Below, one piece after another: positions 1-63,240 of a stretch of 64,000 bases of DNA. The first letter of the stretch is position 1; every line of letters begins with the position of its first letter. The stretch comes from Hippasteria phrygiana. Lineage: Eukaryota; Echinodermata; Asteroidea; Valvatida; Goniasteridae. The stretch covers positions 2,666,001 through 2,730,000 of the forward strand of contig JAZGUH010000117.1 in NCBI GenBank assembly GCA_037893225.1. The letters are read 5' to 3'. The position numbers and the translations under genes are program-made. A model generated the notes under the pieces. That model searched no databases and was not told the DNA's origin. It saw only the letters and a list, made by a program, of their open reading frames with translations.

Positions 1-1895
1 TCCAAGAATGGCTTCTGCTCCAATTAGCCGCTTAAAGACGGACCATTTTTAAGAACATTTGAAAATGCGTTATTAAGAGTTTCGGGTGGAATGCCGTCTT
101 TGAGAGAAAGTGTACCGCACATGTTTTGGAAAATTCACATTTTTCTTTCATATTCATAATTCCCACCTTCCTGGGCACACTTAATTTCAGCAAGGGCCTA
201 TTCCAAGAATGGCTTCTGCTCCAATTAGCCGCTTAAAGACGGACCATTTTTAAGAGAATTTGGAAATGCGGTATTTGGAATACCGTCTTTGAGAGAAAGT
301 GTACCGCACATGTTTTGGAATATTCATATTTTTCTTTCATATTCATAATTCCCACCTTCCTGGGCACACTTAATTTCAGCAAGGGCCTATTCCAAGAATG
401 GCTTCTGCTCCAAATAGCCGCTTAAAGGCGGACCATTTTTCAGAACATTTGAAAATGCGTTATTAAGAGTTTCGGGTGGAATGCCGTCTTTGAGAGAAAG
501 TGTACCGCACATGTTTTGGAATATTCATATTTTTCTTTCATATTCATAATTCCCACCTTCCTGGGCACACTTAATTTCAGCAAGGGCCTATTCCAAGAAT
601 GGCTTCTGCTCCAATTAGCCGCTTAAAGACGGACCTTTTTAAGAACATTTGGAAATGCGGTATTTGGAATACCGTCTTTGAAAGAAAGTGTACCGCACAC
701 GTTTTGGAAAATTCATATTTTTCTTTCATATTCATAATTCTCACCTTCCTGGGCACACTTAATTTCAGCAAGGGCCTATTCCAAGAATGGCTTCTGCTCC
801 AATTAGCCGCTTAAAGACGGACCATTTTCCGAGAATATTTGAATATGCGGTATTTGGAGTTCGGGTGAAATGCCGTCTTTGAGAGAAAGTGTACCGCACA
901 TGTTTTGGAAAATTCATATTTTTCTTTCATATTCATAATTCTCACCTTCCTGGGCACACTTAATTTCAGCAAGGGCCTATTCCAAGAATGGCTTCTGCTC
1001 CAATTAGCCGCTTAAAGACGGACCATTTTTAAGAACATTTGAAAATGCGTTATTAAGAGTTTCGGGTGGAATGCCGTCTTTGAGAGAAAGTGTACCGCAC
1101 ATGTTTTGGAAAATTCACATTTTTCTTTCATATTCATAATTCCCACCTTCCTGGGCACACTTAATTTCAGCAAGGGCCTATTCCAAGAATGGCTTCTGCT
1201 CCAAATAGCCGCTTAAAGGCGGACCATTTTTCAGAACATTTGAAAATGCGTTATTAAGAGTTTCGGGTGGAATGCCGTCTTTGAGAAAAAGTGTACCGCA
1301 CATGTTTTGGAAAATTTATATTTTTCTTTCATATTCATAATTCCCACCTTTCTGGGCACACTTAATTTCAGCAAGGGCCTATTCCAAGAATGGCTTCTGC
1401 TGCAATTGGCCGCTTAAAGACGGACCATTTTCCAGAATATTTGAAAATGCGGTATTTGGAGTTCGGGTGAAATGCCGTCTTTGAAAGAAAGTGTACCGCA
1501 CACGTTTTGGAAAATTCATATTTTTCTTTCATATTCATAATTCTCACCTTCCTGGGCACACTTAATTTCAGCAAGGGCCTATTCCAAGAATGGCTTCTGC
1601 TCCAATTAGCCGCTTAAAGACGGACCATTTTTAAGAACATTTGAAAATGCGTTATTAAGAGTTTCGGGTGGAATGCCGTCTTTGAGAGAAAGTGTACCGC
1701 ACATGTTTTGGAAAATTCACATTTTTCTTTCATATTCATAATTCCCACCTTCCTGGGCACACTTAATTTCAGCAAGGGCCTATTCCAAGAATGGCTTCTG
1801 CTCCAATTGGCCGCTTAAAGACGGACCATTTTTAAGAAAATTTTGAAATGCGGTATTTGGAGTTCGGGTGGAATACCGTCTTTGAGAGAAAATGT
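1..1895 (-). repeat. ~198-bp foldback-arm tandem array, minus orientation
   Basis: About nine and a half head-to-tail units of roughly 197-201 bp run off the left edge. Each unit carries recognisable blocks such as CCTGGGCACACTTAATTTC, AAGAATGGCTTCTGCTCC and GTGTACCGCACATGTTTTGG. Units differ by substitutions and small length changes, and several subtypes alternate. The same unit forms both arms of the complete element at 17,664-29,421. Short reading frames recur in every unit but look like a by-product of the unit, not a gene. Confidence 0.93.
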
Positions 1896-2232
1896 ATACA
1901 CATGTATATTTATACACATGTATATTTAGGTAATCTGTTCAATACAATGTAAAGTATGTAGTACCTCCCTGACTATGACGCTCCAACATGCAAGAAAATT
2001 TTTGAACCGATTATTTTTATTTTGAAATTAATATGTAAACCCTAAAAGTGTACAATTAATATATCTTAAAGCTGCGTCCGAATCGCTTGTCTATGGCTAT
2101 TGTCTATAGGTGTTCGTCCATTACAACTACGCGTGACGTAGCCGTAGCTGTAGCTCTAGACGCCCATTTCGGACACGGCCTAATAATCATCCAATATAAC
2201 TGATAAACGGGTTGCACACAACAATGAATGTG
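1896..2232 (-). mobile_element. Core segment of the foldback element, inverted copy
   Basis: This stretch is the near-identical reverse complement of 24,548-24,894, the segment just inside the right arm of the complete foldback element. It lies here directly between two oppositely oriented arrays, with the protease genes and the rest of the core missing. The 1-3,114 structure is therefore best read as an internally deleted copy, inverted relative to the complete one. A ~110-bp MITE is nested inside it. Confidence 0.85.
2071..2180 (-). mobile_element. ~110-bp MITE-like repeat, copy 1
   Basis: It begins GCTGCGTCCGAATCGC and ends TTCGGACACGGCC, so the ends form an imperfect inverted repeat around TCCGAA. 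Related copies lie at 24,600-24,711 (inside the foldback core) and 51,023-51,128 (outside any foldback element). The last copy shows the unit is dispersed on its own. Confidence 0.7.
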
Positions 2233-3114
2233 TATATGAAAGAAAAATATGAATTTTCCGAAACATGTGCGGTACACTTTCTCTCAAAGACGGCATTCCA
2301 CCCGAACTCCAAATACCGCATTTTGAAATTGTCTTAAAAATGGTCCGTCTTTAAGCGGCCAATTGAAGCAGAAGCCATTCTTGGAATAGGCCCTTGCTGA
2401 AATTAAGTGTGCCCAGGAAGGTGGGAATTATGAATATGAAAGAAAAATATGAATTTTCCAAAACATGTGCGGTACACTTTTTCTCAAAGACGGCATTCCA
2501 CCCGAAACTCTTAATAACGCATTTTCAAATGTTCTGAAAAATGGTCCGCCTTTAAGCGGCTATTTGGAGCAGAAGCCATTCTTGGAATAGGCCCTTGCTG
2601 AAATTAAGTGTGCCCAGGAAGGTGGGAATTATGAATATGAAAGAAAAATATGAATATTCCAAAACATGTGCGGTACACTTTCTCTCAAAGACGGTATTCC
2701 AAATACCGCATTTCCAAATTCTCTTAAAAATTGTCCGTCTTTAAGCGGCTAATTGGAGCAGAAGCCATTCTTGGAATAGGCCCTTGCTGAAATTAAGTGT
2801 GCCCAGGAAGGTGAGAATTAGGAATATGAAAGAAAAATATGAATTTTCCAAAACATGTGCGGTACACTTTCTCTCAAAGACGGAATTCCACCCGAACTCC
2901 AAATACCGCATTTTGAAATTGTCTTAAAAATGGTCCGTCTTTAAGCGGCCAATTGAAGCAGAAGCCATTCTTGGAATAGGCCCTTGCTGAAATTAAGTGT
3001 GCCCAGGAAGGTGGGAATTATGAATATGAAAGAAAAATATGAATTTTCCAAAACATGTGCGGTACACTTTTTCTCAAAGACGGCATTCCACCCGAAACTC
3101 TTAATAACGCATTT
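2233..3114 (+). repeat. ~198-bp foldback-arm tandem array, plus orientation
   Basis: About four and a half units of the foldback arm run opposite to those at 1-1,895, so the two arrays would pair as a hairpin. The array breaks off in mid-unit near 3,114 and lacks the outer terminus seen at 29,047-29,421 and 50,562-50,939. This arm is truncated. Confidence 0.9.
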
Positions 3115-11597: not shown

Positions 11598-14500
11598 ATA
11601 TCTGAGGTCAGATGTTTAGGTCAAAATAATGGTAAATTTTTGCATAATTTGGCACTTGAAGTTGAAGGAATCCTAAAGGGATCAACAAAATGGTACAAAT
11701 ATTCAAGTTGTATCAGTTAAAATTTAAGAATTTAATTTAAATTTTAATTAATTGAAATTAAGGATTGGATTCTAAATTTCCGAAGGGGGCGGAGGGCATT
11801 CTAGGATAACTCAGGCCAATTTTTGTGCAGATTGGTCCCTTGATTCTAATTTAAGGTCAAATGGTCACTTTTCAGCAATATTTGGCACGGGGCATAGATG
11901 ATAAAATTGTAGTCAATTTTCCAAGTTGGGGTTAGTTAAAATTTACGGATTCGATTTAAATTTTATGAAGGGGACGGATGATGTACTAGAATATCTAAGG
12001 TCAAATTATGTGCAAATGGGTCACTTGGTTTAAATTTTTGGGTCAAATGGTCACTTTTGAGCATTATTGGCATGTGGCATAGATGATAAAATTGTATAAA
12101 TTTTCTATATTTGGGTTAGTTGAAATTTACAGATTGCATTTTAAATTTCCAAAGGGGGCGGAGGGCATACTAGGATATCTTAGGCCAAATTTCGTGCAAA
12201 TTTGTCACTTGGTTTAAATGTTTGGGTCCAAATGGTCACTTTTGAGTATTTTGGCATGTGGCATAGATAAAATTGGAGTAAATTTTCCAAGTTTGGGTTA
12301 GTTTACATCTACAGATTAGATTTAAATTTTCATGAGTGGACGGAAGGCATACTAGGACATCTCAGGCCAAATTTTGTGCAAATGCGTCACTTGATTCAAA
12401 TTGTTGGGTAAAATGGTCACTTTCGAGCATTATTTGGCACGTAGCATAGATGATAAAATTGTACTAAATATTTCAAGTTTGGGTTAGTTGAAATTTACGG
12501 ATTGATTTTAAATTCTCATGAGTGGACGGAGGGCATAATAGAATATCTCAGGCCAAATTGTGTGCAAATTGGTCACTTGGTTCAAATTGTTGGGTCCAAT
12601 GGTCACTTTCGAGCACTTTTTGGCATGTGGCATAGATGGAAAAATTGTACTCAATTTTCCACGTTTGGGTTAGTTGAAATTTACGGATTGATTCTAAATT
12701 CTCATGAGTGGACGGAGGGCATAATAGGATATATGAGGCAATTTTTTTGCAAATTGGTCACTTGGTTCAAATTGTTGGGTCCAATGGTCATTTTCGAGCA
12801 TTATTTGGCACGTGGCATAGATGGTAAAATTGTACTAAATTTTTCAAGTTTGGGTTAGTTGAAATTTACGGATTGATTTTAAATTCTTATGAGTGGACGG
12901 AGGGCATACTAGGATATCTTAGGCCAAATTTTGTGCAAATTGGTCACTTGGTTCAAATTGTTGGGTCCAATGGTCACTTTTGAGTATTATTTGGCTTGTG
13001 GCATAGATTATAGAATTTTATCAATTTTCCAAGTTTGGGTTAGTTGAAATCTATAGATTGGATTTAAATTCTCATGAGTGGACGGAGGGCACAATAGGAT
13101 ATCTCAGGCCAAATGTTGTGAAAATTGGTCACTTGGTTCAAATTGTTGGGTCCAATGGTCACTTTTGAGTACTATTTGGCTTGTGGCATAGATTATAGAA
13201 TTTTATCAATTTTCCAAGTTTGGGTTAGTTGAAAGCTAAAGATTGCATTTAAATTTTCATACGTGGACGGAGGGAATATTAGGATATCTCAGTCCAAATG
13301 TTGTGCAAATGCGTCACTTGATTCAAATTTTTGGGTCAAATGGTCAATTTCGAGCATTATCTGGCACGTGGCATAGATGGTAAAATTGTACTTAATTTTC
13401 CAAGTTTGGGTTAGTTGAAATTTACGGATTGATTTTAAATTCTCATGAGTGGACGGAGGGCATACTAGGATATCTCAGGCCAAATTGTGTGCAAATTGGT
13501 CACTTTGTTCAAATTGTTGGGTCCAATGGTCACTTTTGAGTATTATTTGGCTTGTGGCATAGATTATAGAATTTTATCAATTTTCCAAGTTTGGGTTTGT
13601 TGAAATCTATAGATTGGATATAAATTTTCATACGTGGACGGAGGGAATATTAGGATATCTCAGTCCAAATGTTGTGAACATTTGTCACTTTGTTCAAATC
13701 GTTGGGTCCAATGGTCACTTTTGAGTATTATTTGGCTTGTGGCATAGATTATAGAATTTTATCAATTTTCCAAGTTTGGGTTAGTTGAAATCTATAGATT
13801 GGATATAAATTTTCATACGTGGACGGAGGGAATATTAGGATATCTCAGTCCAAATGTTGTGCAAATGCGTCACTTGATTCAAATTTTTGGGTCAAATGGT
13901 CACTTTCGAGCATTATTTGGCACGTGGCATAGATGGTAAAATTGTACTTAATTTTCCAAGTTTGGGTTAGTTGAAATCTATAGATTGATTTTAAATTCTC
14001 ATGAGTGGACGGAGGGCATAATAGGATATCTCAGGCCAAATTTTGTGCAAATTGGTCACTTGGTTCAAATTGTTGGGTCCAAATGGTCACTTCTGAGTAT
14101 TATTTGGCTTGTGGCATAGATTATAGAATTTTATCAATTTTCCAAGTTTGGGTTAGTTGAAATCTATAGATTGATTTTAAATTCTCATGAGTGGACGGAG
14201 GGCATAATAGGATATCTCAGGCCAAATGTTGTGCAAATTGGTCACTTGGTTCAAATTGTTGGGTCCAAATGGTCACTTTTGAGTATTTTGGCATGTGGCA
14301 TAGATGATAAAATTGGAGCCAATTTTCCATTTTTGGGTTAGTTTAAATTCACGGATTGAATTTAATTTCTCATGAGTGAACGGAGGGTATAATAGGATAT
14401 CTCAGGCCAAATTTTGTGCAAATTGGTCACTTGGTTCAAATTGTTGGGTCCAATGGTCACTTTTGAGTATTATTTGGAATGTGGCATAGATTATAGAATT

Positions 14501-14800
14501 TTATTAATTTTCCAAGTTTTCGTAAGTGGACGGAGGGCATACTAGGATATCTCGGGCTAAATTTTGTGCAAATGGGTCACTTGGCGCAAATTTGTGGGTC
14601 AAATGGTCATTATTCAGCATTGTATCAGTTTTTCAAGTTTGGCTTAGTTGAAATTTACGGATTGGATTTAAATTTTCATAAATGGACGGAGGGCATAATA
14701 GGATATCACAGTTCAATTTTTTTGAAAATTGGGGACACGGTTCAAATATTGGGATAAAACGGGGGATTTTAAGCAATAAATTTGTATGGATGATGTAATT
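11598..14800 (+). repeat. ~185-bp diverged satellite array (about 17 copies)
   Basis: Tandem units of about 183-186 bp share GAGTGGACGGAGGGCATA, AGGATATCTCAGGCCAAAT, TTGGTCACTTGGTTCAAAT, TTGTGGCATAGAT and TTTTCCAAGTTTGGGTTAG. Copies at the two ends are the most degenerate and the centre is more homogeneous. The array has no coding conservation and is not related to the 73- or 198-bp units. Confidence 0.93.
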
Positions 14801-17655: not shown

Positions 17656-17663
17656 TTTCCTAT
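17656..17663. repeat. Left target-site duplication of foldback element
   Basis: TTTCCTAT immediately precedes the terminal ACCTGGCGG; the identical octamer follows the other terminus at 29,422-29,429. Confidence 0.92.
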
Positions 17664-18044
17664 ACCTGGCGGAAGCTAGCCCGAGATTCAGCACGCGATT
17701 CAGCCTGCGATTCAGCCCGCGATTCAGCCCGCGATTCGCAATAGGGCCCGCGATTCGCCCGATCAGAGCAGCCGCATATAGAAAACTAGAATCCATCCGA
17801 CAAAAGGAGTTTTTTTTTTTTATGAAATCACTGGATTCAGGCAACGAATTTTCGAAAAATATCAAGAAATTACAAACCAATTTTGCTTGAATTTTCAGAA
17901 TAGGTATAGGCAAAGCTGTACATATTATACTGAACGCTATTTTATGTGTATTTTTTATGAAATAATTTGTCAATTCGCGAGGGCCCATTTCAAAAGCTTC
18001 TCTACATCAATTCCTTTCGGCTCAGCACAATAGCTTCTGTTTAA
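17664..18044 (-). repeat. Left unique terminus of foldback element
   Basis: Near-exact reverse complement of 29,047-29,421. It includes about five copies of a 15-bp motif (GATTCAGCCCGC type) and a short A/T homopolymer that differs in length between the ends. The same terminus occurs at 50,562-50,939, where the homopolymer is lost. Confidence 0.92.
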
Positions 18045-19998
18045 AAGAAAGTGTACCGCACATGTTTTGGAAAATTCACATTTTTCTTTCATATTCATAA
18101 TTCCCACCTTCCTGGGCACACTTAATTTCAGCAAGGGCCTATTCCAAGAATGGCTTCTGCTCCAAATAGCCGCTTAAAGGCGGACCATTTTTCAGAACAT
18201 TTGAAAATGCGTTATTAAGAGTTTCGGGTGGAATGCCGTCTTTGAGAAAAAGTGTACCGCACATGTTTTGGAAAATTCATATTTTTCTTTCATATTCATA
18301 ATTCCCACCTTCCTGGGCACACTTAATTTCAGCAAGGGCCTATTCCAAGAATGGCTTCTGCTTCAATTGGCCGCTTAAAGACGGACCATTTTCCAGAATA
18401 TTTGAAAATGCGGTATTTGGAGTTCGGGTGAAATGCCGTCTTTGAAAGAAAGTGTACCGCACACGTTTTGGAAAATTCATATTTTTCTTTCATATTCCTA
18501 ATTCTCACCTTCCTGGGCACACTTAATTTCAGCAAGGGCCTATTCCAAGAATGGCTTCTGCTCCAATTAGCCGCTTAAAGACGGACCATTTTTAAGAACA
18601 TTTGAAAATGCGTTATTAAGAGTTTCGGGTGGAATGCCGTCTTTGAGAGAAAGTGTACCGCACATGTTTTGGAAAATTCACATTTTTCTTTCATATTCAT
18701 AATTCCCACCTTCCTGGGCACACTTAATTTCAGCAAGGGCCTATTCCAAGAATGGCTTCTGCTCCAATTGGCCGCTTAAAGACGGACCATTTTCCAGAAT
18801 ATTTGAAAATGCGGTATTTGGAGTTCGGGTGGAATGCCGTCTTTGAAAGAAAGTGTACCGCACACGTTTTGGAAAATTCATATTTTTCTTTCATATTCCT
18901 AATTCCCACCTTCCTGGGCACACTTAATTTCAGCAAGGGCCTATTCCAAGAATGGCTTCTGCTCCAAATAGCCGCTTAAAGGCGGACCATTTTTCAGAAC
19001 ATTTGAAAATGCGTTATTAAGAGTTTCGGGTGGAATGCCGTCTTTGAGAAAAAGTGTACCGCACATGTTTTGGAAAATTCACATTTTTCTTTCATATTCA
19101 TAATTCCCACCTTCCTGGGCACACTTAATTTCAGCAAGGGCCTATTCCAAGAATGGCTTCTGCTCCAATTAGCCGCTTAAAGACGGACAATTTTTAAGAG
19201 AATTTGGAAATGCGGTATTTGGAATACCGTCTTTGAGAGAAAGTGTACCGCACATGTTTTGGAATATTCATATTTTTCTTTCATATTCATAATTCCCACC
19301 TTCCTGGGCACACTTAATTTCAGCAAGGGCCTATTCCAAGAATGGCTTCTGCTCCAAATAGCCGCTTAAAGACGGACCATTTTAAAGAAAATTTGAAAAT
19401 GCGGTATTTGGAGTTTCGGGTGGAATGCCGTCTTTGAGAGAAAGTGTACCGCACATGTTTTGGAAAATTCACATTTTTCTTTCATATTCATAATTCCCAC
19501 CTTCCTGGGCACACTTAATTTCAGCAAGGGCCTATTCCAAGAATGGCTTCTGCTCCAATTGGCCGCTTAAAGACGGACCATTTTCCAGAATATTTGAAAA
19601 TGCGGTATTTGGAGTTCGGGTGAAGTGCCGTCTTTGAAAGAAAGTGTACCGCACACGTTTTGGAAAATTCATATTTTTCTTTCATATTCATAATTCTCAC
19701 CTTCCTGGGCACACTTAATTTCAGCAAGGGCCTATTCCAAGAATGGCTTCTGCTCCAATTAGGCGCTTAAAGACGGACCATTTTCCCAGAATATTTGAAA
19801 ATGCGGTATTTGGAGTTCGGGTGAAATGCCGTCTTTGAAAGAAAGTGTACCGCACATGTTTTGGAAAATTCATATTTTTCTTTCATATTCATAATTCCCA
19901 CCTTCCTGGGCACACTTAATTTCAGCAAGGGCCTATTCCAAGAATGGCTTCTGCTCCAATTGGCCGCTTAAAGACGGACCATTTTCCAGAATATTTGA
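18045..19998 (-). repeat. Left arm: ~198-bp tandem array (about 10 units)
   Basis: Same unit as the right arm in inverted orientation. The order of subtypes is not a mirror image of the right arm, so the arms have been rearranged by unequal exchange or conversion since they formed. The last unit ends abruptly at AGAATATTTGAA, right before the open coding frame. Confidence 0.93.
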
Positions 19999-20006
19999 AT
20001 CTGTGA

Positions 20007-22202
20007 CTGAATACACTGAAAGGTGTTATAGAATTGTTACTGGTATTAAAGGCAAGGGAGAACGATTTGAAAAAAACACACGTTCATTCCTGTGTCAGTC
20101 ACTTCGTGAAAAACAGTGCCAAAATGTGCAGGAAGTATTATCATTCCAACTTTCGTGATGCAATGTATTGGATTGGTCTTCTCGTACAAGCAAGCACCCT
20201 TGACGAAATCGATGAAATCATACTGTCTATGACAATAATAACATGTTCGGAGTTTGCAACGGATCTTGTAAAATCAAACTTTGAGAAACTAAAATCTAAA
20301 ATTGAACAGCAGAATTCCACCCAAAATGATTACTTGGAAGAGAATGTATCTGAACACGCCGATGGAGAGGGAGACCCTTCCACATCAGACTTCCACAACT
20401 TGGCTGAGAGCGAAACAAGCAGCCTTGATATTTCGGAGGACGAATATATTCAAAAAGGATACAACTCACCATTTAAGGCTCATTTTCAAGGGATTATCGA
20501 GCTAGGAAAAAGGGAAATTGACAAATATGGCAAGGGTACAAACACTGCAGTACAGCATCTCAAAAATCCCTACTTAGGGAAAGAATTTCTGAATTATCTT
20601 TTGCAATTTCCACTCTCAAACATAGCTAGCTGGTCAGCACTTTTACTACATGATCATGGAAGGCACGGAACATCGCAGATTTATGAAAACTATTCAAAGA
20701 TGTACAGGGTTCTAGAAAATTCAAAATTTCAGAATATATCAAGGGACAATCGGACACAAGGGATAGTTGAAAAATCCATGCAAGAGACGAAAAGAGCGAA
20801 ATTGATGTACAATAGGGTTGGAAAATTGATTGATTTCGTTCTCATTTACGAAAGAGACATGCTCCCCCTACAAAGGGAATTCGTTGAAGCATTCTGCACC
20901 TCTAAACGGACCATCCGTAAACGATCTTTGAAACTGTCTACTGAGAAATGGTCCAAACGTCCAAAAACAAGCACACCAACAAATAAAGGTGTCTACCTTA
21001 CTCCCCCAACTCAGGAATTGCGGTTTAAAGACGGGTCAAACAAAAAAAGGGGAAAGCAAGAACAACCAAAACCGGAAAGCGCAAACGCCTTTCTTCACAA
21101 AGTGAAAAAGAACCACTCGTCTAAACACAAGAAAACCGCAGTCGTGGACACGACAAATCAGTCAACATCGTCTTTACTCAGGGGGATTTCAAACAATCAA
21201 GTATCTTGTTGGTGGATTTCAACCATCCAAGCTGTTCGACCATTCATTGATGCAACAAAAATCAATGTTGCTAAGTTTCAAGGAAGCGAAGTATTTCTTT
21301 GGCGAAACCTATTGAAGCTTTTTGAATCATTAAACAATGGAAATACATCGGCTGTTCCATTCCACGAAGTGAAGCCATTGGTAGAAGAGAGTGCATTGCA
21401 AATGGGAATTAATTCCAAACACCAGCAAGATGCTGCCGAATTTTATTCGCAACTGATTGTACCTTTTTGGGGGGAGTCTTGTCTCACCAACGAAATAGAA
21501 ATTATAAAATCAGTGATGTGCCTACGTTGTGACGAAAGCGAACCAACAGAAAATTCAAGTTCGGGAGTGTTGCCGGTTCCTCTGAATAAATCGACTTTAG
21601 ATAAATGCATTCAACAGGTTTTTGAAGATGAAATGATTTCGGACGTAAACTGTGATTTTTGCCGCGAGACATTGTATAAAAAGATCATGACAACGCGCAT
21701 CGTAAATTGTCCGTCTGTGTTAGTCGTGCAACTACTACGGACCCGTGTCGTTGAAAACAAACTTGAAAAAATTACTACAGAAGTTCTCCCCAGTGTAGAA
21801 ATAGATTTACGCCGATTCTGTTTGAACAAAACACCCGCCGTTTACCGCCTGAGATCTGTAATAACGCACGAGGGTCAATCCCTACAAAGCGGACATTATA
21901 AAGCCTTTGTTAGGGAAAATTTGTACGGTACTGGTTCAGTCACGAAATTCGACGACTCACGGGTAGACCGCATAGGCACGTTTGCTTTTACCACCCAGAT
22001 ATCGGAATCTGGTTACATATACTTTTTTGAAAGAACAGATGTTCACAGGAAAGACAAAGACTGCACGGGCTCATGCACTTCAGATGACAATTTCGTGGTA
22101 AGCGATAAGGAGAGAGAATTTGTGAACATTCTATGGTGTTCGCTCAATGAAAAAACCTGCATAGCGTTGCAGTCGAAAACACAACGAACACCGAGTTCTT
22201 AA
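20007..22202 (+). CDS. Transposase-like remnant fused to USP-type deubiquitinase
   Basis: Uninterrupted frame of about 731 codons (residues numbered from 20,034). Residues ~15-260 (THVHSCVSHFVKN, FRDAMYWIGLLVQASTLDE, TQGIVEKSMQETK) resemble, to my eye, the C-terminal half of DDE transposases found as uncharacterised proteins in invertebrates; the N-terminal acidic residues are absent. A basic linker leads to a peptidase C19 (USP) domain at ~380-668: Cys box NNQVSCWW (Cys392), HQQDAAEF (464-469), zinc knuckle CLRC...CDFC (496-543), His box SGHYKAF (His621) and FDDSRV (Asp640/641). All catalytic residues are present, although the usual GNTCYMN around Cys is altered. The first in-frame ATG is 20,124, inside the conserved part, so the gene is 5'-truncated or has an unseen upstream exon. 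A neighbouring frame at 19,998-20,060 (SVTEYTERCYRIVTG) continues the similarity upstream, implying a frameshift. Confidence 0.85.
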   Translation: MNTLKGVIELLLVLKARENDLKKTHVHSCVSHFVKNSAKMCRKYYHSNFRDAMYWIGLLVQASTLDEIDEIILSMTIITCSEFATDLVKSNFEKLKSKIEQQNSTQNDYLEENVSEHADGEGDPSTSDFHNLAESETSSLDISEDEYIQKGYNSPFKAHFQGIIELGKREIDKYGKGTNTAVQHLKNPYLGKEFLNYLLQFPLSNIASWSALLLHDHGRHGTSQIYENYSKMYRVLENSKFQNISRDNRTQGIVEKSMQETKRAKLMYNRVGKLIDFVLIYERDMLPLQREFVEAFCTSKRTIRKRSLKLSTEKWSKRPKTSTPTNKGVYLTPPTQELRFKDGSNKKRGKQEQPKPESANAFLHKVKKNHSSKHKKTAVVDTTNQSTSSLLRGISNNQVSCWWISTIQAVRPFIDATKINVAKFQGSEVFLWRNLLKLFESLNNGNTSAVPFHEVKPLVEESALQMGINSKHQQDAAEFYSQLIVPFWGESCLTNEIEIIKSVMCLRCDESEPTENSSSGVLPVPLNKSTLDKCIQQVFEDEMISDVNCDFCRETLYKKIMTTRIVNCPSVLVVQLLRTRVVENKLEKITTEVLPSVEIDLRRFCLNKTPAVYRLRSVITHEGQSLQSGHYKAFVRENLYGTGSVTKFDDSRVDRIGTFAFTTQISESGYIYFFERTDVHRKDKDCTGSCTSDDNFVVSDKEREFVNILWCSLNEKTCIALQSKTQRTPSS

Positions 22203-22921
22203 CATTTTCCCAATTGGCAACGATTAATTCTTCTCCCTCCCCTGCTATTGTGAAGCGCCTGAAACATGCATACACAAATTATCAACCAGGATGGTTGGGA
22301 GAAGGAGTGATAGATTTTTACCTGAACCAGCTTTGCAAACTGTCACATAATGATCCCCACCAGAAAAGAAAGTTTGGGTCCGTGCAGTGCTTTGTGACCA
22401 AGAAGATATTGCATAATAAAATAACTCCAGAAACGTATCGATCAGTGGCCAAACACTGCTTTGTAGGTATGCGTTTCTGCGAGGTGATGATATTTCCCCT
22501 ATTAGAAAATATGCACTTCACCCTGTACGCCATCGACACTAAAAGCAGCAGGATAGATTGTTTGGATTCCATGAGTGACAGGAAAGACACGAGGCAGAAG
22601 AGGTTAGCCCATGGTCATGCATTCAGGGAGTTTTTTCAGAACGGTCTAATCAAGAGATACTGGAATAATACTCACGGTGTTCTTCAGTGTGAAAAAATGA
22701 TTAACATAAGACAAGCACCCTGTCTGCAGCAAACAGATTCAGCAAGTTGTGGTGTTTATTGCTGCTTGTTTGCCGAGGAAATGTGTCTGGGAGAGAGAAA
22801 ACTTCACATAGGCAATGATAGTGAAGAACTCCGAATGTATCTCACGATTCAGCTAATACAACGATCCAACATTGTTGACCCTCAGCTTCAACAATTATAT
22901 TCAACTTATATGAATTTGTAA
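22151..22921 (+). CDS. Ulp1/SENP-type (C48) cysteine protease
   Basis: Predicted protease for SUMO or a related ubiquitin-like modifier. Counting from 22,214: GWLGEGVIDFYLNQL near residue 26 is the C48 tryptophan motif; MHFTLYAID gives His101; DCLDSM gives Asp118; LQQTDSASCGVYCC supplies the oxyanion Gln173 and nucleophile Cys179. The domain looks complete and the key residues are intact. The frame opens at 22,151 and overlaps the end of the USP frame by about 50 bases in the -1 phase. No in-frame ATG precedes the tryptophan motif, so independent translation would lose it; expression as a frameshift or spliced fusion with the upstream protein is more likely. Ulp1 domains are known companions of several eukaryotic transposons, including the KDZ (Zisupton) group. 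Confidence 0.88.
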   Translation, partial: KNLHSVAVENTTNTEFLTFSQLATINSSPSPAIVKRLKHAYTNYQPGWLGEGVIDFYLNQLCKLSHNDPHQKRKFGSVQCFVTKKILHNKITPETYRSVAKHCFVGMRFCEVMIFPLLENMHFTLYAIDTKSSRIDCLDSMSDRKDTRQKRLAHGHAFREFFQNGLIKRYWNNTHGVLQCEKMINIRQAPCLQQTDSASCGVYCCLFAEEMCLGERKLHIGNDSEELRMYLTIQLIQRSNIVDPQLQQLYSTYMNL

Positions 22922-22925
22922 TAAA
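22920..22925 (+). terminator. AATAAA polyadenylation signal
   Basis: AATAAA overlaps the TAA stop of the Ulp1 frame. It is consistent with a very short 3' UTR for the cargo transcript; one hexamer is weak evidence alone. Confidence 0.4.
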
Positions 22926-24547
22926 TAAGATGAACCCTAATGACAATTTGCGTCATTTTGGTATTTTACAATATTATCTAATCTCTGTTGGTGCAATGTA
23001 TTGATTATGCTTGATCTTGCCTTTGACAAGTACAATCGCTTCATTTAAAACTTTATATCACATTGGAAAGGCTCTTATAATTTATATTCATATGCAATCG
23101 GGAAATCACCTTTTTAACGTAACACTGAAATTTAGAAAGCTGCATGCTACACTGGGTAAAGTGAAACAATTTGCATCTGACTGGTCATACACCTATGACG
23201 TCACATTGTTTACGGAAGCTTGCCAAATATTGTCCTCGTGTAGCGTTCATTCTATTGCGTGGTTTGCTGTTGAGCTGTCAAGACGTCGTGCAGACAGCAC
23301 CGCTTGTTATATTAATTTCACTTTTGGAATTTGTTTTAATGCTTTCCTTTTAACCTTAATTGAATTTGTATAGATTTGTTTAAATAGCTTTTAGTAATAC
23401 ATTGTAGTTCAACTTATATTTTTCCAAATTCTTTGTGTGTTTTACGTGTCACTAACATTGGTAGCTTAGGGCCTATACATAAATGTTGATGATTTTTTAA
23501 TTTACGATTTATTCTCTGCGCATGAATTTAAGTATTTCTGTCACAGTCATATTTAAGCGCCTTCGTCATAACATTTTGCACTTTCTCAAATCATTTCAAT
23601 TGTCTGACTTGCATTTAGTATTAAGCAAGAACATTATTAGTTTTTCCGGTTTTGATCACACATTTTGTTTGTTAATTTCGAGTACGTGTAACAATTAATC
23701 TTTTTGAAATTTCAGATTTGAACATTTTTTTATTCCTTTCTCATATTAACTTGCTGTTATTAAACTTTGATTGCGAAAGTTGTGATTTAAAGGTGATCAT
23801 GGCCGATAAACGTAGCAAACCTAACCGTTCTTTGGAGGATGTTTTTCAGTTGTTTTCAGGGGGAGGCTGTCCTGTTGGAATGAGTCGTGACTAGCGGCGA
23901 ACTGTTGGAAGATTTGCAAGCTGCTTCAGACTATATAGAAGGTATAATGCCAAAGATGTATACGTGTCCATATAACCATTCGAGTTTCTTTTAGGATTCA
24001 TTGCAAGTTCAACTGATGAGTCATGAATTTGACGAAAGGGCAATTAGCAGCATTGAAAATGGAACTCTTCACAAACATTGGTTCTTTGGTTTACAAACAT
24101 TGGCTCAATATTTTCAAGTAAAAATAAATCGCAATTCAAATTGTTTTTAACTTGACAATTGCCCTCAATTTGAAAAGGGCTAAGTAAGCTGCTGATTGGC
24201 CTCTTGAACACCGCATGATGTGTATAAAATTGAACAAACTTAAACATAATTCACCGGTGTCTGTCTTCATCAGGGTTCATGGGCGGCGATAACGAGGTGA
24301 GGGACGGAGGGACACGTCCCCCAATATTTTGGGAGGAGGGGTCGGCTATGGCAGTGTCCCCCCCTCCCCCCAATAATTTCGTGAATACGCAAAGATCGGC
24401 ACACACTTTCAAATATTTCCCAGGATACAGAAGATGTACACCGAGTGGAAAATGCTTAACAATTATTCTTGGGTGTCTGCTTTTTTCCTCCGTCCCCCAA
24501 CCTTGACGACAACTCGCCGCCGCTGTCGGGGTTCACAAAGCTGCATG
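22926..24547. other. Non-coding part of foldback core
   Basis: AT-rich sequence with no convincing ORF. It contains a G/C-run patch near 24,290-24,370 (GGACGGAGGGACACGTCCCCC). The segment is absent from the deleted copy at 1-3,114, so it is dispensable for that derivative's arms. Confidence 0.5.
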
Positions 24548-24894
24548 CACATTCATTGTTGTGTGCAACCCGTTTATCAGTTATATTGGATGATTATTAG
24601 GCCGTGTCCGAAATGGGCGTCTAGAGCTACAGCTACGGCTACGTCACGCGTAGTTGTAATGGACGAACACCTATAGACAATATAGCCATAGACAAGCGAT
24701 TCGGACGCAGCTTTAAGATATATTAATTGTACACTTTTAGGGTTTACATATTAATTTCAAAATAAAAATAATCGGTTCAAAAATTATCTTGCATGTTGGA
24801 GCGTCATAGTCAGGGAGGTACTACATACTTTACATTGTATTGAACAGATTACCTAAATATACATGTGTATAAATATACATGTGTATACATTTTC
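24548..24894 (+). mobile_element. Core segment adjoining right arm, shared with the deleted copy
   Basis: Matches the reverse complement of 1,896-2,232 almost base for base, including ATACATGTGTATAAATATAC next to the array and the nested ~110-bp MITE. Its left edge marks the deletion breakpoint of the derivative. Confidence 0.88.
24600..24711 (+). mobile_element. ~110-bp MITE-like repeat, copy 2
   Basis: GGCCGTGTCCGAAATGGGCG at one end and ATTCGGACGCAGC at the other. Reverse complement of the copy at 2,071-2,180 and related to 51,023-51,128. Confidence 0.7.
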
Positions 24895-27800
24895 TCTCAA
24901 AGACGGTATTCCACCCGAACTCCAAATACCGCATTTCCAAATTTTCTTAAAAATGGTCCGTCTTTAAGCGGCCAATTGGAGCAGAAGCCATTCTTGGAAT
25001 AGGCCCTTGCTGAAATCAAGTGTGCCCAGGAAGGTGGGAATTATGAATATGAAAGAAAAATGTGAATTTTCCAAAACATGTGCGGTACACTTTCTCTCAA
25101 AGACGGCATTCCACCCGAAACTCTTAATAACGCATTTTCAAATATTCTGGGAAAATGGTCCGTCTTTAAGCGGCTAATTGGAGCAGAAGCCATTCTTGGA
25201 ATAGGCCCTTGCTGAAATTAAGTGTGCCCAGGAAGGTGAGAATTATGAATATGAAAGAAAAATATGAATTTTCCAAAACGTGTGCGGTACACTTTCTTTC
25301 AAAGACGGCATTTCACCCGAACTCCAAATACCGCATTTTCAAATATTCTGGAAAATGGTCCGTCTTTAAGCGGCCAATTGGAGCAGAAGCCATTCTTGGA
25401 ATAGGCCTTGCTGAAATTAAGTGTGCCCAGGAAGGTGGGAATTATGAATATGAAAGAAAAATGTGAATTTTCCAAAACATGTGCGGTACACTTTCTTTCA
25501 AAGACGGCATTTCACCCGAACTCCAAATACCGCATTTTCAAATATTCTGGAAAATGGTCCGTCTTTAAGCGGCTAATTGGAGCAGAAGCCATTCTTGGAA
25601 TAGGCCCTTGCTGAAATTAAGTGTGCCCAGGAAGGTGAGAATTATGAATATGAAAGAAAAATATGAATTTTCCAAAACGTGTGCGGTACACTTTCTTTCA
25701 AAGACGGCATTTCACCCGAACTCCAAATACCGCATTTTCAAATATTCTTAAAAATGGTCCGTCTTTAAGCGGCCAATTGAAGCAGAAGCCATTCTTGGAA
25801 TAGGCCCTTGCTGAAATTAAGTGTGCCCAGGAAGGTGGGAATTATGAATATGAAAGAAAAATATGAATTTTCCAAAACATGTGCGGTACACTTTTTCTCA
25901 AAGACGGCATTCCACCCGAAACTCTTAATAACGCATTTTCAAATGTTCTGAAAAATGGTCCGCCTTTAAGCGGCTATTTGGAGCAGAAGCCGTTCTTGGA
26001 ATAGGCCCTTGCTGAAATTAAGTGTGCCCAGGAAGGTGGGAATTATGAATATGAAAGAAAAATATGAATATTCCAAAACATGTGCGGTACACTTTCTCTC
26101 AAAGACGGTATTCCAAATACCGCATTTCCAAATTCTCTTAAAAATTTTCCGTCTTTAAGCGGCCAATTGGAGCAGAAGCCATTCTTGGAATAGGCCCTTG
26201 CTGAAATTAAGTTTGCCCAGGAAGGTGGAAATTATGAATATGAAAGAAAAATATGAATTTTCCAAAACGTGTGCGGTACACTTTCTTTCAAAGACGGCAT
26301 TTCACCCGAACTCCAAATACCGCATTTTCAAATATTCTGGAAAATGGTCCGTCTTTAAGCGGCCAATTGGAGCAGAAGCCATTCTTGGAATAGGCCCTTG
26401 CTGAAATTAAGTGTGCCCAGGAAGGTGGGAATTATGAATATGAAAGAAAAATATGAATATTCCAAAACATGTGCGGTACGGTATTCCAAATACCGCATTT
26501 CCAAATGTTCTTAAAAATGGTCCGTCTTTAAGCGGCTAATTGGAGCAGAAGCCATTCTTGGAATAGGCCCTTGCTGAAATTAAGTGTGCCCAGGAAGGTG
26601 GGAATTATGAATATGAAAGAAAAATGTGAATTTTCCAAAACATGTGCGGTACACTTTCTCTCAAAGACGGCATTCCACCCGAAACTCTTAATAACGCATT
26701 TTCAAATGTTCTTAAAAATGGTCCGTCTTTAAGCGGCTAATTGGAGCAGAAGCCATTCTTGGAATAGGCCCTTGCTGAAATTAAGTTTGCCCAGGAAGGT
26801 GAGAATTATGAATATGAAAGAAAAAAATGAATTTTCCAAAACGTGTGCGGTACACTTTCTTTCAAAGACGGCATTCCACCCGAACTACAATACCGCATTT
26901 TCAAATATTCTGGAAAATGGTCCGTCTTTTAAGCGGCCAATTGAAGCAGAAGCCATTCTTGGAATAGGCCCTTGCTGAAATTAAGTGTGCCCAGGAAGGT
27001 GGGAATTATGAATATGAAAGAAAAATATGAATATTCCAAAACATGTGCGGTACACTTTCTCTCAAAGACGGTATTCCAAATACCGCATTTCCAAATTTTC
27101 TTAAAAATGGTCTGTCTTTAAGCGGCTAATTGGAGCAGAAGCCATTCTTGGAATAGGCCCTTGCTGAAATTAAGTTTGCCCAGGAAGGTGGGAATTATGA
27201 ATATGAAAGAAAAATATGAATATTCCAAAACATGTGCGGTACACTTTCTCTCAAAGACGGCATTCCACCCGAAACTCTTAATAACGCATTTTCAAATGTT
27301 CTGAAAAATGGTCCGCCTTTAAGCGGCTAATTGGAGCAGAAGCCATTCTTGGAATAGGCCCTTGCTGAAATTAAGTGTGCCCAGGAAGGTGGGAATTATG
27401 AATATGAAAGAAAAATATTAATTTTCCAAAACATGTGCGGTACACTTTCTCTCAAAGACGGCATTCCACCCGAACTACAATACCGCATTTCCAAATTTTC
27501 TTAAAAATGGTCCGTCTTTAAGCGGCTAATTGGAGCAGAAGCCATTCTTGAAATAGGCCCTTGCTGAAATTAAGTGTGCCCAGGAAGGTGGGAATTATGA
27601 ATATGAAAGAAAAATGTGAATTTTCCAAAACATGTGCGGTACACTTTCTTTCAAAGACGGCATTTCACCCGAACTCCAAATACCGCATTTTCAAATATTC
27701 TGGGAAAATGGTCCGTCTTTAAGCGGCTAATTGGAGCAGAAGCCATTCTTGGAATAGGCCCTTGCTGAAATTAAGTGTGCCCAGGAAGGTGAGAATTATG

Positions 27801-29046
27801 AATATGAAAGAAAAATATGAATTTTCCAAAACGTGTGCGGTACACTTTCTTTCAAAGACGGCATTTCACCCGAACTCCAAATACCGCATTTTCAAATATT
27901 CTGGAAAATGGTCCGTCTTTAAGCGGCCAATTGGAGCAGAAGCCATTCTTGGAATAGGCCCTTGCTGAAATTAAGTGTGCCCAGGAAGGTGGGAATTATG
28001 AATATGAAAGAAAAATGTGAATTTTCCAAAACATGTGCGGTACACTTTCTCTCAAAGACGGCATTCCACCCGAAACTCTTAATAACGCATTTTCAAATGT
28101 TCTTAAAAATGGTCCGTCTTTAAGCGGCTAATTGGAGCAGAAGCCATTCTTGGAATAGGCCCTTGCTGAAATTAAGTGTGCCCAGGAAGGTGAGAATTAG
28201 GAATATGAAAGAAAAATATGAATTTTCCAAAACGTGTGCGGTACACTTTCTTTCAAAGACGGCATTCCACCCGAACTACAATACCGCATTTTCAAATATT
28301 CTGGAAAATGGTCCGTCTTTTAAGCGGCCAATTGAAGCAGAAGCCATTCTTGGAATAGGCCCTTGCTGAAATTAAGTGTGCCCAGGAAGGTGGGAATTAT
28401 GAATATGAAAGAAAAATATGAATATTCCAAAACATGTGCGGTACACTTTCTCTCAAAGACGGTATTCCAAATACCGCATTTTCAAATTTTCTTTAAAATG
28501 GTCCGTCTTTAAGCGGCTAATTGGAGCAGAAGCCATTCTTGGAATAGGCCCTTGCTGAAATTAAGTGTGCCCAGGAAGGTGGGAATTATGAATATGAAAG
28601 AAAAATATGAATATTCCAAAACATGTGCGGTACACTTTCTCTCAAAGACGGCATTCCACCCGAAACTCTTAATAACGCATTTTCAAATGTTCTGAAAAAT
28701 GGTCCGCCTTTAAGCGGCTAATTGGAGCAGAAGCCATTCTTGGAATAGGCCCTTGCTGAAATTAAGTGTGCCCAGGAAGGTGGGAATTATGAATATGAAA
28801 GAAAAATATGAATTTTCCAAAACATGTGCGGTACACTTTCTCTCAAAGACGGCATTCCACCCGAACTACAATACCGCATTTCGAAATTTTCTTAAAAATG
28901 GTCCGTCTTTAAGCGGCTAATTGGAGCAGAAGCCATTCTTGGAATAGGCCCTTGCTGAAATTAAGTGTGCCCAGGAAGGTGGGAATTATGAATATGAAAG
29001 AAAAATGTGAATTTTCCAAAACATGTGCGGTACACTTTCTTTTAAA
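24895..29046 (+). repeat. Right arm: ~198-bp tandem array (about 21 units)
   Basis: Head-to-tail units of 175-201 bp. Subtypes (for example with or without the CACCCGAAACTCTTAATAAC block, or with a short TCCAAATACCG deletion) recur in a partly periodic order, suggesting duplication of multi-unit blocks. The arm is twice as long as the left one. Confidence 0.93.
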
Positions 29047-29421
29047 CAGAAGCTATTGTGCTGAGCCGAAAGGAATTGATGTAGAGAAGCTTTTGAAATG
29101 GGCCCTCGCGAATTGACAAATTATTTCATAAAAAATACACATAAAATAGCGTTCAGTATAATATGTACAGCTTTGCCTATACCTATTCTGAAAATTCAAG
29201 CAAAATTGGTTTGTAATTTCTTGATATTTTTCGAAAATTCGTTGCCTGAATCCAGTGATTTCATAAAAAAAAAAACTCCTTTTGTCGGATGGATTCTAGT
29301 TTTCTATATGCGGCTGCTCTGATCGGGCGAATCGCGGGCCCTATTGCGAATCGCGGGCTGAATCGCGGGCTGAATCGCAGGCTGAATCGCGTGCTGAATC
29401 TCGGGCTAGCTTCCGCCAGGT
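29047..29421 (+). repeat. Right unique terminus of foldback element
   Basis: Begins after TTTCTTTTAAACAG and ends CGGGCTAGCTTCCGCCAGGT; inverted copy of 17,664-18,044. Confidence 0.92.
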
Positions 29422-29429
29422 TTTCCTAT
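29422..29429. repeat. Right target-site duplication of foldback element
   Basis: TTTCCTAT, identical to 17,656-17,663. Confidence 0.92.
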
Positions 29430-33876: not shown

Positions 33877-34461
33877 ATGACTTCACGAGAGCTTATAAAC
33901 CTGCAACAGTCTATGTCGAAGGAGGAGTCGGGAGTGTTCCTGAGACAGATCATGGGAGGAAGTAGAGGAAGAAAAGCACCAAAGAAAAAGAGAGAGCGAA
34001 GAGTGCTTGGTGTAGAGGAGGAGCATATTGCTGGGAGCAGTGCGGGAAAGGAGCCCGGGAGGAGGACGAAGAAAGGAAAAGGCAAGGGGAAAGCGCCACT
34101 CCCCAAGAGCAGAGATGCCGGCTACAAGGAGCGCCTTGCGGCCGCTAAAAAGCTGGAGCTACGGCAGGCTATACGGCAGAGTGCCGTTGAAGCAGGGGTT
34201 CGGATGGGGAAAACCTACCGGGCTTTGGCTAGCACCTCTGAAAGTGATGAGGAGGAATATCTGGACAACGCCTGCATGTCCCTGTCTGAAGAGAGTTGTC
34301 AGGAGGAGACACTGAGCGAGGAGGAAGAGGAAAGTGAGGAGCCCAGGGGAGATGGGGACAAGGACGGGAGGGAGACCCACGAGGAGGAGGGGGAGGAGGA
34401 GGAGGAGGAGGCGGAGGAGGAGGAAGAGGAGGAAGGGGAGGAGGAAGAGGAAGAGGAAGAG

Positions 34462-34496
<35 letters not shown>

Positions 34497-48200: not shown

Positions 48201-50561
48201 ATTTTCAAATGTTCTGAAAAATGGTCCGCCTTTAAGCGGCTATTTGAAGCAGAAGCCATTCTTGGAATAGGCCCTTGCTGAAATTAAGTGTGCCCAGGAA
48301 GGTGGGAATTATGAATATGAAAGAAAAATGTGAATTTTCCAAAACATGTGCGGTACACTTTCTCTCAAAGACGGCATTCCACCCGAAACTCCAAATACCG
48401 CATTTTGAAATTTTCTTAAAAATGGTCCGTCTTTAAGTGGCTAATTGGAGCAGAAGCCATTCTTGGAATAGGCCCTTGCTGAAATTAAGTGTGCCCAGGA
48501 AGGTGAGAATTAGGAATATAAAAGAAAAATATGAATTTTCCAAAACATGTGCGGTACACTTTCTCTCAAAGACGGAATTCCACCCGAACTCCAAATACCG
48601 CATTTTGAAATTTTCTTAAAAATGGTCCGTCTTTAAGCGGCCAATTGAAGCAGAAGCCATTCTTGGAATAGGCCCTTGCTGAAATTAAGTGTGCCCAGGA
48701 AGGTGGGAATTATGAATATGAAAGAAAAATATGAATATTCCAAAACATGTGCGGTACACTTTCTCTCAAAGACGGCATTCCACCCGAAACTCTTAATAAC
48801 GCATTTTCAAATGTTCTGAAAAATGGTCCGTCTTTAAGCGGCTATTTGGAGCAGAAGCCATTGTTGGAATAGGCCCTTGCTGAAATTAAGTGTGCCCAGG
48901 AAGGTGGGAATTATGAATATGAAAGAAAAATATGAATATTCCAAAACATGTGCGGTACACTTTCTTTCAAAGACGGCATTTCACCCGAACTCCAAATACC
49001 GCATTTTCAAATATTCTGGGAAAATGGTCCGTCTTTAAGCGGCTAATTGGAGCAGAAGCCATTCTTGGAATAGGCCCTTGCTGAAATTAAGTGTGCCCAG
49101 GAAGGTGAGAATTATGAATATGAAAGAAAAATATGAATTTTCCAAAACGTGTGCGGTACACTTTCTTTCAAAGACGGCATTTCACCCGAACTCCAAATAC
49201 CGCATTTTCAAATATTCTGGAAAATGGTCCGTCTTTAAGCGGCCAATTGGAGCAGAAGCCATTCTTGGAATAGGCCCTTGCTGAAATTAAGTGTGCCCAG
49301 GAAGGTGGGAATTATGAATATGAAAGAAAAATGTGAATTTTCCAAAACATGTGCGGTACACTTTCTCTCAAAGACGGCATTCCACCCGAAACTCCAAATA
49401 CCGCATTTTGAAATTTTCTTAAAAATGGTCCGTCTTTAAGCGGCTAATTGGAGCAGAAGCCATTCTTGGAATAGGCCCTTGCTGAAATTAAGTGTGCCCA
49501 GGAATGTGAGAATTAGGAATATAAAAGAAAAATATGAATTTTCCAAAACATGTGCGGTACACTTTCTCTCAAAGACGGAATTCCACCCGAACTCCAAATA
49601 CCGCATTTTGAAATTTTCTTAAAAATGGTCCGTCTTTAAGCGGCCAATTGAAGCAGAAGCCATTCTTGGAATAGGCCCTTGCTGAAATTAAGTGTGCCCA
49701 GGAAGGTGGGAATTATGAATATGAAAGAAAAAAATGAATTTTCCAAAACATGTGCGGTACACTTTTTCTCAAAGACGGCATTCCACCCGAAACTCTTAAT
49801 AACGCATTTTCAAATGTTCTGAAAAATGGTCCGCCTTTAAGCGGCTATTTGGAGCAGAAGCCATTCTTGGAATAGGCCCTTGCTGAAATTAAGTGTGCCC
49901 AGGAAGGTGGGAATTATGAATATGAAAGAAAAATATGAATATTCCAAAACATGTGCGGTACACTTTCTCTCAAAGACGGTATTCCAAATACCGCATTTCC
50001 AAATTCTCTTAAAAATTGTCCGTCTTTAAGCGGCTAATTGGAGCAGAAGCCATTCTTGGAATAGGCCCTTGCTGAAATTAAGTGTGCCCAGGAAGGTGAG
50101 AATTATGAATATGAAAGAAAAATATGAATATTCCAAAACATGTGCGGTACACTTTCTCTCAAAGACGGCATTCCACCCCGAAACTCTTAATAACGCATTT
50201 TCAAATGTTCTGAAAAATGGTCCGCCTTTAAGCGGCTATTAGGAGCAGAAGCCATTCTTGGAATAGGCCCTTGCTGAAATTAAGTGTGCCCAGGAAGGTG
50301 GGAATTATGAATATGAAAGAAAAATATGAATATTCCAAAACATGTGCGGTACACTTTCTCTCAAAGACGGCATTCCACCCGAACTACAATACCGCATTTC
50401 CAAATTTTCTTAAAAATGGTCCGTCTTTAAGCGGCTAATTGGAGCAGAAGCCATTCTTGAAATAGGCCCTTGCTGAAATTAAGTGTGCCCAGGAAGGTGG
50501 GAATTATGAATATGAAAGAAAAATGTGAATTTTCCAAAACATGTGCGGTACACTTTCTTTT
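48201..50561 (+). repeat. ~198-bp foldback-arm array (about 12 units)
   Basis: Same unit and orientation as the right arm of the complete element. The left edge starts in mid-unit and no core segment or genes adjoin it, so this is a right arm without a recognisable partner next to it. Confidence 0.93.
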
Positions 50562-50939
50562 AAACAGAAGCTATTGTGCTGAGCCGAAAGGAATTGATGT
50601 AGGGAAGCTTTTGAAATGGGCCCTCGCGAATTGACAAATTATTTCATAAAAAATACACATAAAATAGCGTTCTGTACAATATGTACAGCTTTGCCTATAA
50701 CTATTCTGAAAATTCAAGCAAAATTGGTTTGTAATTTCTTGATATTTTTCGAAAATTCGTTGCCTGAATCCAGCGATTTTCATCCTTTTGTCGGATGGAT
50801 TCTAGTTTTCTATATGCGGCTGCTCTGATCGGGCGAATCGCGGGCCCTATTGCGAATCGCGGGCTGAATCGCGGGCTGAATCGCAGGCTGAATCGCAGGC
50901 TGAATCGCGTGCTGAATCTCGGGCTAGCTTCCGCCAGGT
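50562..50939 (+). repeat. Right unique terminus of a second foldback copy
   Basis: Matches 29,047-29,421 and ends CTAGCTTCCGCCAGGT at 50,939. The next eight bases, CAAATATG, would be this copy's target duplication; no matching left end is present in the window. Confidence 0.9.

Positions 50940-60792: not shown

Positions 60793-63240
<2,448 letters not shown>

Follow-up and report, generated by a model that had tools for sequence, protein, structure and literature searches.

A foldback element in the sea star Hippasteria phrygiana as a probable deletion derivative of a giant MULE-type transposon with fused USP and Ulp1 domains

The genomic window analyzed here, a stretch of 64,000 nucleotides from the sea star Hippasteria phrygiana (GenBank assembly GCA_037893225.1, contig JAZGUH010000117.1, positions 2,666,001 to 2,730,000 of the forward strand), contains a foldback element of 11,758 bp (17664-29421), hereafter A1, whose core encodes two cysteine peptidase domains, one of the USP type and one of the Ulp1 type. 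A1 is probably a non-autonomous derivative that arose by internal deletion from a giant foldback element of ~32 kb belonging to the MULE (Mutator-like element) kind, the transposase of which would carry both peptidases at its C-terminus. Within this explanation, the anatomy of the element and its MULE identity are highly probable, and a deconjugation step performed by the USP and Ulp1 domains, judged from sequence, has roughly even chances of being correct.

Both boundaries of A1 are marked by 13-bp ends, ACCTGGCGGAAGC on the left and GCTTCCGCCAGGT on the right, which are exact inverted copies of each other, and the element is flanked on either side by a perfect 8-bp target-site duplication, TTTCCTAT, as the initial annotation had described. 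Alignment of the arms over their outermost 420 nt shows no mismatch and a single internal 1-nt indel. The arms are composed of tandem units of ~200 bp, first read as ~198 bp, and these belong to two alternating subtypes that together form a 401-bp dimer. Long inverted repeats built of tandem units, the hallmark of foldback elements, are therefore present in A1, as they are in the full-length C276 element described below. Together with the two peptidase domains, these ends, duplications, and arms bear out the initial proposal of a foldback transposon that combines a ubiquitin-type with a SUMO-type protease. The coordinates of all features are collected in Table 1.

In the A1 core, Pfam profiles detect a UCH domain (E = 3.1e-27) and a C48 domain (E = 3.5e-13), both beyond the Pfam cut-offs. 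Alignment to USP2 locates N387, C392, H621, and D640/D641 in the USP frame, and alignment to SENP2 locates H101, D118, Q173, and C179 in the C48 frame; the catalytic residues are all in place, as initially reported. With its UCH profile and Cys/His/Asp triad, the USP part is a predicted member of Peptidase C19, and the Ulp1 part, with its profile and His/Asp/Gln/Cys residues, is a predicted member of Peptidase C48 with a predicted specificity for SUMO. On its own, the C48 open reading frame of A1 retrieved no database protein at E 0.001, and Pfam recognized no domain in the 23005-23370 frame.

A reading of the two peptidases as independent USP and Ulp1 genes did not survive: they correspond to the fused C-terminal domains of a MULE-type transposase, and in A1, a copy shortened by deletion, the frame is broken. 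Transposase-like similarity in A1 begins at the very end of the left arm (20000), and the PHD finger, the putative DNA-binding region, and two catalytic aspartates are missing. Two frame breaks, with frame changes at ~20047 and ~22150, leave USP and C48 in different frames, which in full-length copies are a single shared frame; this fused frame rules out two separate genes, and the USP and Ulp1 frames of A1 are read as remnants of one transposase gene. A programmed frameshift between USP and C48 was also considered and is not favored, because the three full-length proteins read through without a shift.

The genome searched comprises 944 Mb in 1285 contigs, and the searches scored part of the candidates (62 of 130 with the USP frame and 39 of 254 with the fish protein introduced below), so that the counts are lower bounds and a missing match carries little weight. 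At least 70 matches to the USP frame came from a translated search. Three loci, C276, C463, and C82, contain stop-to-stop frames of 2064, 1758, and 2023 amino acids, respectively, each a single frame comprising a PHD finger, a MULE-type DDE transposase, USP, and Ulp1. The PHD, UCH, and C48 matches each exceed the Pfam cut-off in all three proteins, which also contain the D, D, C2H, and E motifs (in C276, D at 997 and 1075, CxxH from 1122, and E at 1348). The C276 element measures 31,612 bp and is flanked by a 9-bp duplication; its arms comprise 31.4 and 36.0 copies of the unit, and it holds a single long frame that resembles a gene. BLAST comparisons of elements and arms cover matches filtered by length or the best matches only; among these, the core and right arm of A1 are 97.1% identical to C276 over 9,109 columns, and the left arm-core junction of A1 falls in the middle of the transposase relative to C276. 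A1 would most simply have arisen from a C276-like element by one internal deletion. The C463 locus, with a protein identity of ~54%, also has inverted arrays on both sides, made of 201-203-bp units, with 38 copies to the right and, up to the limit of the stretch, no fewer than 7.5 to the left. In the C82 subfamily, the 27 kb examined contain a 186-bp array on just one side.

Some further features of these loci were observed. In the C276 protein (L029 6162-6933, units of 45/75 bp) and the C82 protein (L031 6178-7011, units of 21/63 bp), in-frame minisatellites precede the PHD finger, with none reported in L030. The C276 element contains a 126-amino-acid open frame at ~12434-12811 (element coordinates), whose likeness to a fragment of an SGNH-type hydrolase is an impression only, and a weak C48-like match (39% over 48 amino acids) occurs in C18.

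MULE transposases are marked by a DDE triad whose second D and E are separated by a C2H motif. These motifs align in the C276, C463, and C82 proteins and in database relatives, with the exceptions that P0002 begins after the first D and that P0006 and P0007 vary. Structure models are consistent with a transposase fold of the IS256/MULE/hAT type, and the target-site duplications fall within the 8-11 bp typical of MULEs. The protein database search gave four relatives, P0001-P0004, including P0001 (991 amino acids, 51% identical) and P0002 (985 amino acids, 37%); in both, a transposase-like region lies upstream of USP, and in P0002 the transposase-like region, USP, and C48 form one chain. A profile of these four found P0005 (Triplophysa rosa LOC130559383) and the more distant P0006 and P0007. 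The N-terminal region of one relative is modeled as WRKY-like, which can be likened only tentatively to the WRKY/GCM1/FLYWCH-type DNA-binding domain of MULE N-termini. NCBIfam gave no match for P0001, P0005, and P0006, and scans of viral contigs and genome contigs for viral or prokaryote carriers gave no relative.

UCH matches are absent in P0004, P0005, and P0007, while P0006 is too short to tell, and P0003 has a USP-like cysteine region recognized by eye only, without a Pfam match. In a tree of the DDE region, P0004, P0005, P0006, and P0007 cluster (support 76) and are joined by P0003 (99); this tree and the distribution of UCH fit, without proving, a single gain of USP. P0005 has a PHD finger, and its C48 match, at 15.3 bits, stays under the cut-off of 20.7; this fish protein bears on the question, posed by Dupeyron et al. 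2019 (PMC6446971) beside a list of MULE groups, of whether vertebrates are without MULEs. With P0005 as the query, the loci holding the best transposase matches in the sea star genome also give matches to the USP frame; for C732 and C77 the match is to the transposase part, and neither appears among the listed USP-frame matches.

A genome search with the termini, envisaged in the initial annotation, found 22 terminus pairs within 35 kb in addition to A2, a second family member in the window. Sixteen pairs, all except those at C53, C363, C382, C400, C423, and C770, and both A2 ends were examined. Target-site duplications were found in 14 of 17 elements (15 fetched pairs, A1, and the A2 ends), with a length of 8 bp in 12 and of 9 bp in two. 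A match to the USP frame is enclosed by 10 of the 22 pairs (A1, C207, C122, C575b, and C276, and, by coordinates only, C400, C423, C53, C363, and C770); with the abundance of USP-frame matches noted above, this defeats the alternative, raised at the outset, that the proteases are ordinary host genes. Eleven copies, including A1, have in common a 731-codon open USP frame with 99-100% identity, and A1 and C207 also retain an open C48 frame. The deletion junction is shared by these two elements, whose cores agree at 4884 of 4885 bases; because their cores are near-identical and yet their duplications differ, the short form has moved recently, and, because the first two catalytic aspartates are missing, its movement would have to occur in trans. 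A variable middle is usual for foldback families. In a comparison of 15 elements with the C276 core (C276 and A2 excluded), 10 have no stretch of at least 80 nt resembling it, and C575a has only its 3' non-coding parts; most elements examined with these ends carry no proteases.

The unit consensus sequences of A1, C463, and C82 have a 17-nt motif, CTGGGCACACTTAATTT, in common. Local scores between the units are 73 for A1-C463, 34 for A1-C82, and 76 for C463-C82, whereas the highest scores among 200 shuffles per pair, which preserve base content only, are 28, 28, and 30; the A1-C82 match consists of the 17-mer alone, and the motif was chosen after the alignment had been viewed. All 52 exact copies in the window reside in the A1 and A2 arms, in opposite orientation in the two arms, and the conservation of the motif within A1/A2 units ranks 20 of 183 windows, which is good but not the best. 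The motif is a likely candidate for the binding site of the transposase.

In pairwise comparisons of C276, C463, and C82, the proportion of non-silent differences (pN) is 0.21-0.25 for the DDE domain, 0.26-0.33 for USP, and 0.28-0.35 for C48, and that of silent differences (pS) is 0.74-0.84, which is saturated, so that pN/pS gives the direction only. The excess of silent change between subfamilies in USP, Ulp1, and DDE alike makes both peptidases look as though they are maintained by purifying selection.

Besides this saturation, several observations weigh against the proposed origin and identity of A1. A duplication is absent in 3 of the 17 elements, and the 13-mer terminus is not commoner in the genome than a reversed-letter control (39+43 versus 41+71); the evidence for the ends rests on their paired orientation, the arms, and the duplications rather than on the frequency of the 13-mer. 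The arm registers are ambiguous, so the single deletion is only the simplest account of A1. The Pfam MULE profile PF10551 matches only P0004 among the seven database proteins, below its cut-off (E 0.0014, 19.4 bits, cut-off 27.6), and gives no match in the C276, C463, and C82 proteins at E 0.1. Foldseek found no match at E 0.001 for a structure model with a mean predicted local distance difference test (pLDDT) score of 55, and the predicted structure of C48 (pLDDT 39) is unusable.

In the proposed mechanism, the full-length transposase would bind the motifs arrayed in the arms and pair the arms, transpose the element through cut-and-paste DDE chemistry, and move A1-type copies in trans. Its C-terminal USP and Ulp1 domains may remove ubiquitin and SUMO from the transposase or, as the initial annotation had suggested, from the transposition complex or from silencing chromatin at the element. 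The complex would in this way escape both degradation and silencing. This is the best supported explanation, with anatomy underlying the binding and mobilizing half, and domain identity and selection only underlying the deconjugation half. In a bolder form, which is rather improbable, the transposase would be a self-contained de-repression machine, its PHD finger reading histone marks and its two deconjugases stripping ubiquitin and SUMO from silencing factors at its own repeat-built arms, with peptidase-only derivatives spreading as trans-acting helpers that counter silencing of the family.

Among the rival explanations, the one that survives best, though unlikely, is polyprotein maturation, in which the Ulp1-type peptidase, the USP, or both would cut the ~2000-amino-acid chain into a transposase and accessory proteins, host ubiquitin and SUMO not being the targets. 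One frame does hold all the domains, and the C48 part of A1 has a weak, sub-cut-off similarity to Peptidase_C5 (E 0.0046, 17.1 bits, cut-off 21.3), Ulp1-type peptidases and the adenovirus protease being of the same clan. However, USP domains normally require a ubiquitin-like fold at the cleavage site, and Pfam at E 0.1 reveals no ubiquitin-like domain in the three full-length proteins.

Somewhat less probable still is that both domains are passengers, captured from the host, no longer needed, and intact only through recent amplification. The 99-100% identity of the 11 truncated copies requires no selection, and MULEs tend to pick up host gene fragments (PMC6446971, in the text available), but across subfamilies that are ~50% identical, USP and C48 are open, in frame, and retain their catalytic residues, with pN far under pS as in the DDE domain, and the fusion also occurs in P0001 (USP) and P0002 (USP and C48). 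A1-type copies might also serve as helpers, the USP/Ulp1 part that they express counteracting silencing in trans. VANC of the VANDAL elements has a comparable anti-silencing role. The deletion took the transposition domains, but the USP frame is open in all 11 copies, as is the C48 frame in A1 and C207; this reading is nonetheless doubtful, and more so than the passenger reading, as the frame breaks of A1 place USP and C48 in different frames and a recent burst accounts for the 99% identity. That unrelated inverted repeats once captured USP and SENP genes of the host, independently of any transposase, is suggested by the window copy by itself, in which just two proteases lie between repeats, but has a negligible chance, being contradicted by the transposase remnant in the USP frame and by the complete fused proteins elsewhere in the genome.

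The second family member, A2, spans G000:C117:2663149-2716939, with its left end beyond the window and a duplication of CAAATATG. It is interrupted by B (3115-48200, 45 kb), a second, different foldback-type element with the duplication ATTT, imperfect inverted ends beginning AACACGTTTGGAAATATTTT, and arms in inverted orientation that are built of a 73-bp tandem unit (3775-6011 and 46669-47754, ~94% alike). When the flanks of B are joined, they are 99.7% identical over 300 bp to an A1 arm. Because B splits A2 and A1 sits within B, the family was active both before and after the arrival of B. A short dispersed repeat, CGTCTAGAGCTACAGCTACGGCTACGTCACGCG, which is perhaps a small transposon, occurs at 24600-24709 in the A1 core, at ~2070-2180 (by eye) in the A2 core, and at 51023-51128, just outside A2. 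A tandem array at 11748-14519, with a period of 371/185 bp and 7.5 dimer copies, is unlike the foldback arm unit as printed.

Table 1. Features of the window, with A1 first, followed by A2 and the remaining features
Feature	Position	Strand	Remarks
A1 left target-site duplication TTTCCTAT	17656..17663	.	
A1 left terminus ACCTGGCGGAAGC	17664..17676	+	paired copies present elsewhere in the genome
A1 outer 12-bp tandem array, AGCCCGCGATTC x5	17678..17737	+	
A1 left arm, ~200-bp tandem units	18040..19999	+	10 anchor sites; CTGGGCACACTTAATTT in 10 exact copies
Remnant of MULE-type transposase	20000..21182	+	retained: C2H motif, with C codon at 20091 and H codon at 20100, and E at 20769 as putative catalytic residue; first two D absent
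Open frame with USP domain	20034..22202	+	Pfam UCH at residues 384-665, ~21183-22028; catalytic codons Cys 21207, His 21894, Asp 21951/21954
Open frame with Ulp1/C48 domain	22151..22921	+	His codon 22514, Asp 22565, Gln 22730, Cys 22748
A1 core 3' part, no recognized gene	22922..24885	.	99.4% identity to the C276 element
A1 right arm, ~200-bp tandem units	24886..29040	-	21 anchor sites
A1 right outer 12-bp tandem array	29348..29407	-	mirrors the left array
A1 right terminus GCTTCCGCCAGGT	29409..29421	-	
A1 right target-site duplication TTTCCTAT	29422..29429	.	
A2 part 1	1..3114	.	arm 1-1904, ~330-nt core remnant 1905-2230, start of right arm 2231-3114
A2 part 2	48201..50939	.	remaining right arm and terminus; following 8 bp are CAAATATG, same as left flank
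piggyBac-type transposase open frame, 827 amino acids, within B	33877-36360		DDE_Tnp_1_7, 1.3e-65
Open frame of 904 amino acids, within B	40055-42769		RVT_1 and GIY-YIG domains; presumably Penelope-like
Vault RNA match	52805-52909	-	Rfam RF00006, 52.1 bits, gathering score 34
Exon-like open reading frame with MH1 domain	61446-61946		8.2e-14; presumably SMAD4-like

A role of the ubiquitin and SUMO pathways in transposition was proposed in 2010 from Ulp1 and OTU domains (PMC2836005), and a direct test was not seen in the literature examined, as far as its text was available. With a ubiquitin-type and a SUMO-type protease on one transposase, apparent purifying selection, full-length copies that are open, and a candidate binding site, this question would become accessible to single-residue mutants. 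The family also ties foldback arms with a conserved repeat motif to a MULE-type transposase, provides an element of ~32 kb with one recognized gene, and offers a case of spread by a foldback derivative without part of its transposase.

The TU elements of sea urchins have foldback arms with tandem repeats, an 8-bp duplication, and variable middles, and are likened to A1 by description only. Tetris of Drosophila virilis has similar arms of ~220-bp tandem units, 8-10 bp duplications, and a variable middle, but is described in the available text as having no coding capacity and no known transposase (PMC4079207). The available descriptions of Rehavkus and Phantom (PMC6446971) and Tm1 (PMC3169594) include 8-10 bp duplications and minisatellites, with a PHD finger in Rehavkus, a FLYWCH domain in Phantom, and foldback-like composite termini in Tm1. 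Rehavkus, with its PHD finger, minisatellite, and 9-bp duplication, resembles the full-length proteins here in its PHD finger, although Rehavkus and Phantom are compared by description only. The word "protease" is absent from the main texts of both papers, that of Dupeyron et al. 2019 (PMC6446971) also containing no mention of ubiquitin or peptidase, and the available part of a 2026 survey of arthropod MULEs (PMC13359780) does not mention ubiquitin, Ulp1, or peptidase. Helitrons likewise encode deubiquitinases (VTD and OTU), sometimes of two classes, but are rolling-circle elements with other enzyme classes, USP being named only as a host enzyme class in the available text of Erven et al. 2022 (PMC9741609).

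The initial annotation had regarded the pairing of the two proteases as undescribed, and this holds in part: a MULE with USP and Ulp1 was not found in the literature searched, most subscription papers and Repbase being outside reach, whereas Ulp1 in an animal Mutator and C19 on a Trichomonas transposase are already published (PMC2836005, in the portion available). A MULE with an added USP beside Ulp1 is thus provisionally a new combination. In the accessible portion of Bao et al. 2010 (PMC2836005), the Trichomonas protein XP_001314237.1 joins Transposase_11 to Peptidase C19 and so resembles the proteins here in having a USP-type peptidase on a transposase, but it belongs to another transposase family (pfam01609), with no Ulp1 mentioned. 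The same portion describes Ginger1 transposases with Ulp1 or OTU, which differ in their Gypsy-type integrase, and Ulp1 in the Mutator transposases of hydra, lancelet, and plants; according to a figure legend, the Ulp1 and PHD domains of both kinds of transposase are aligned. The sea star element shares with these a transposase with a C-terminal Ulp1 peptidase, and differs from them, as described there, in its USP between transposase and Ulp1, its size of ~32 kb, and its repeat-built foldback arms.

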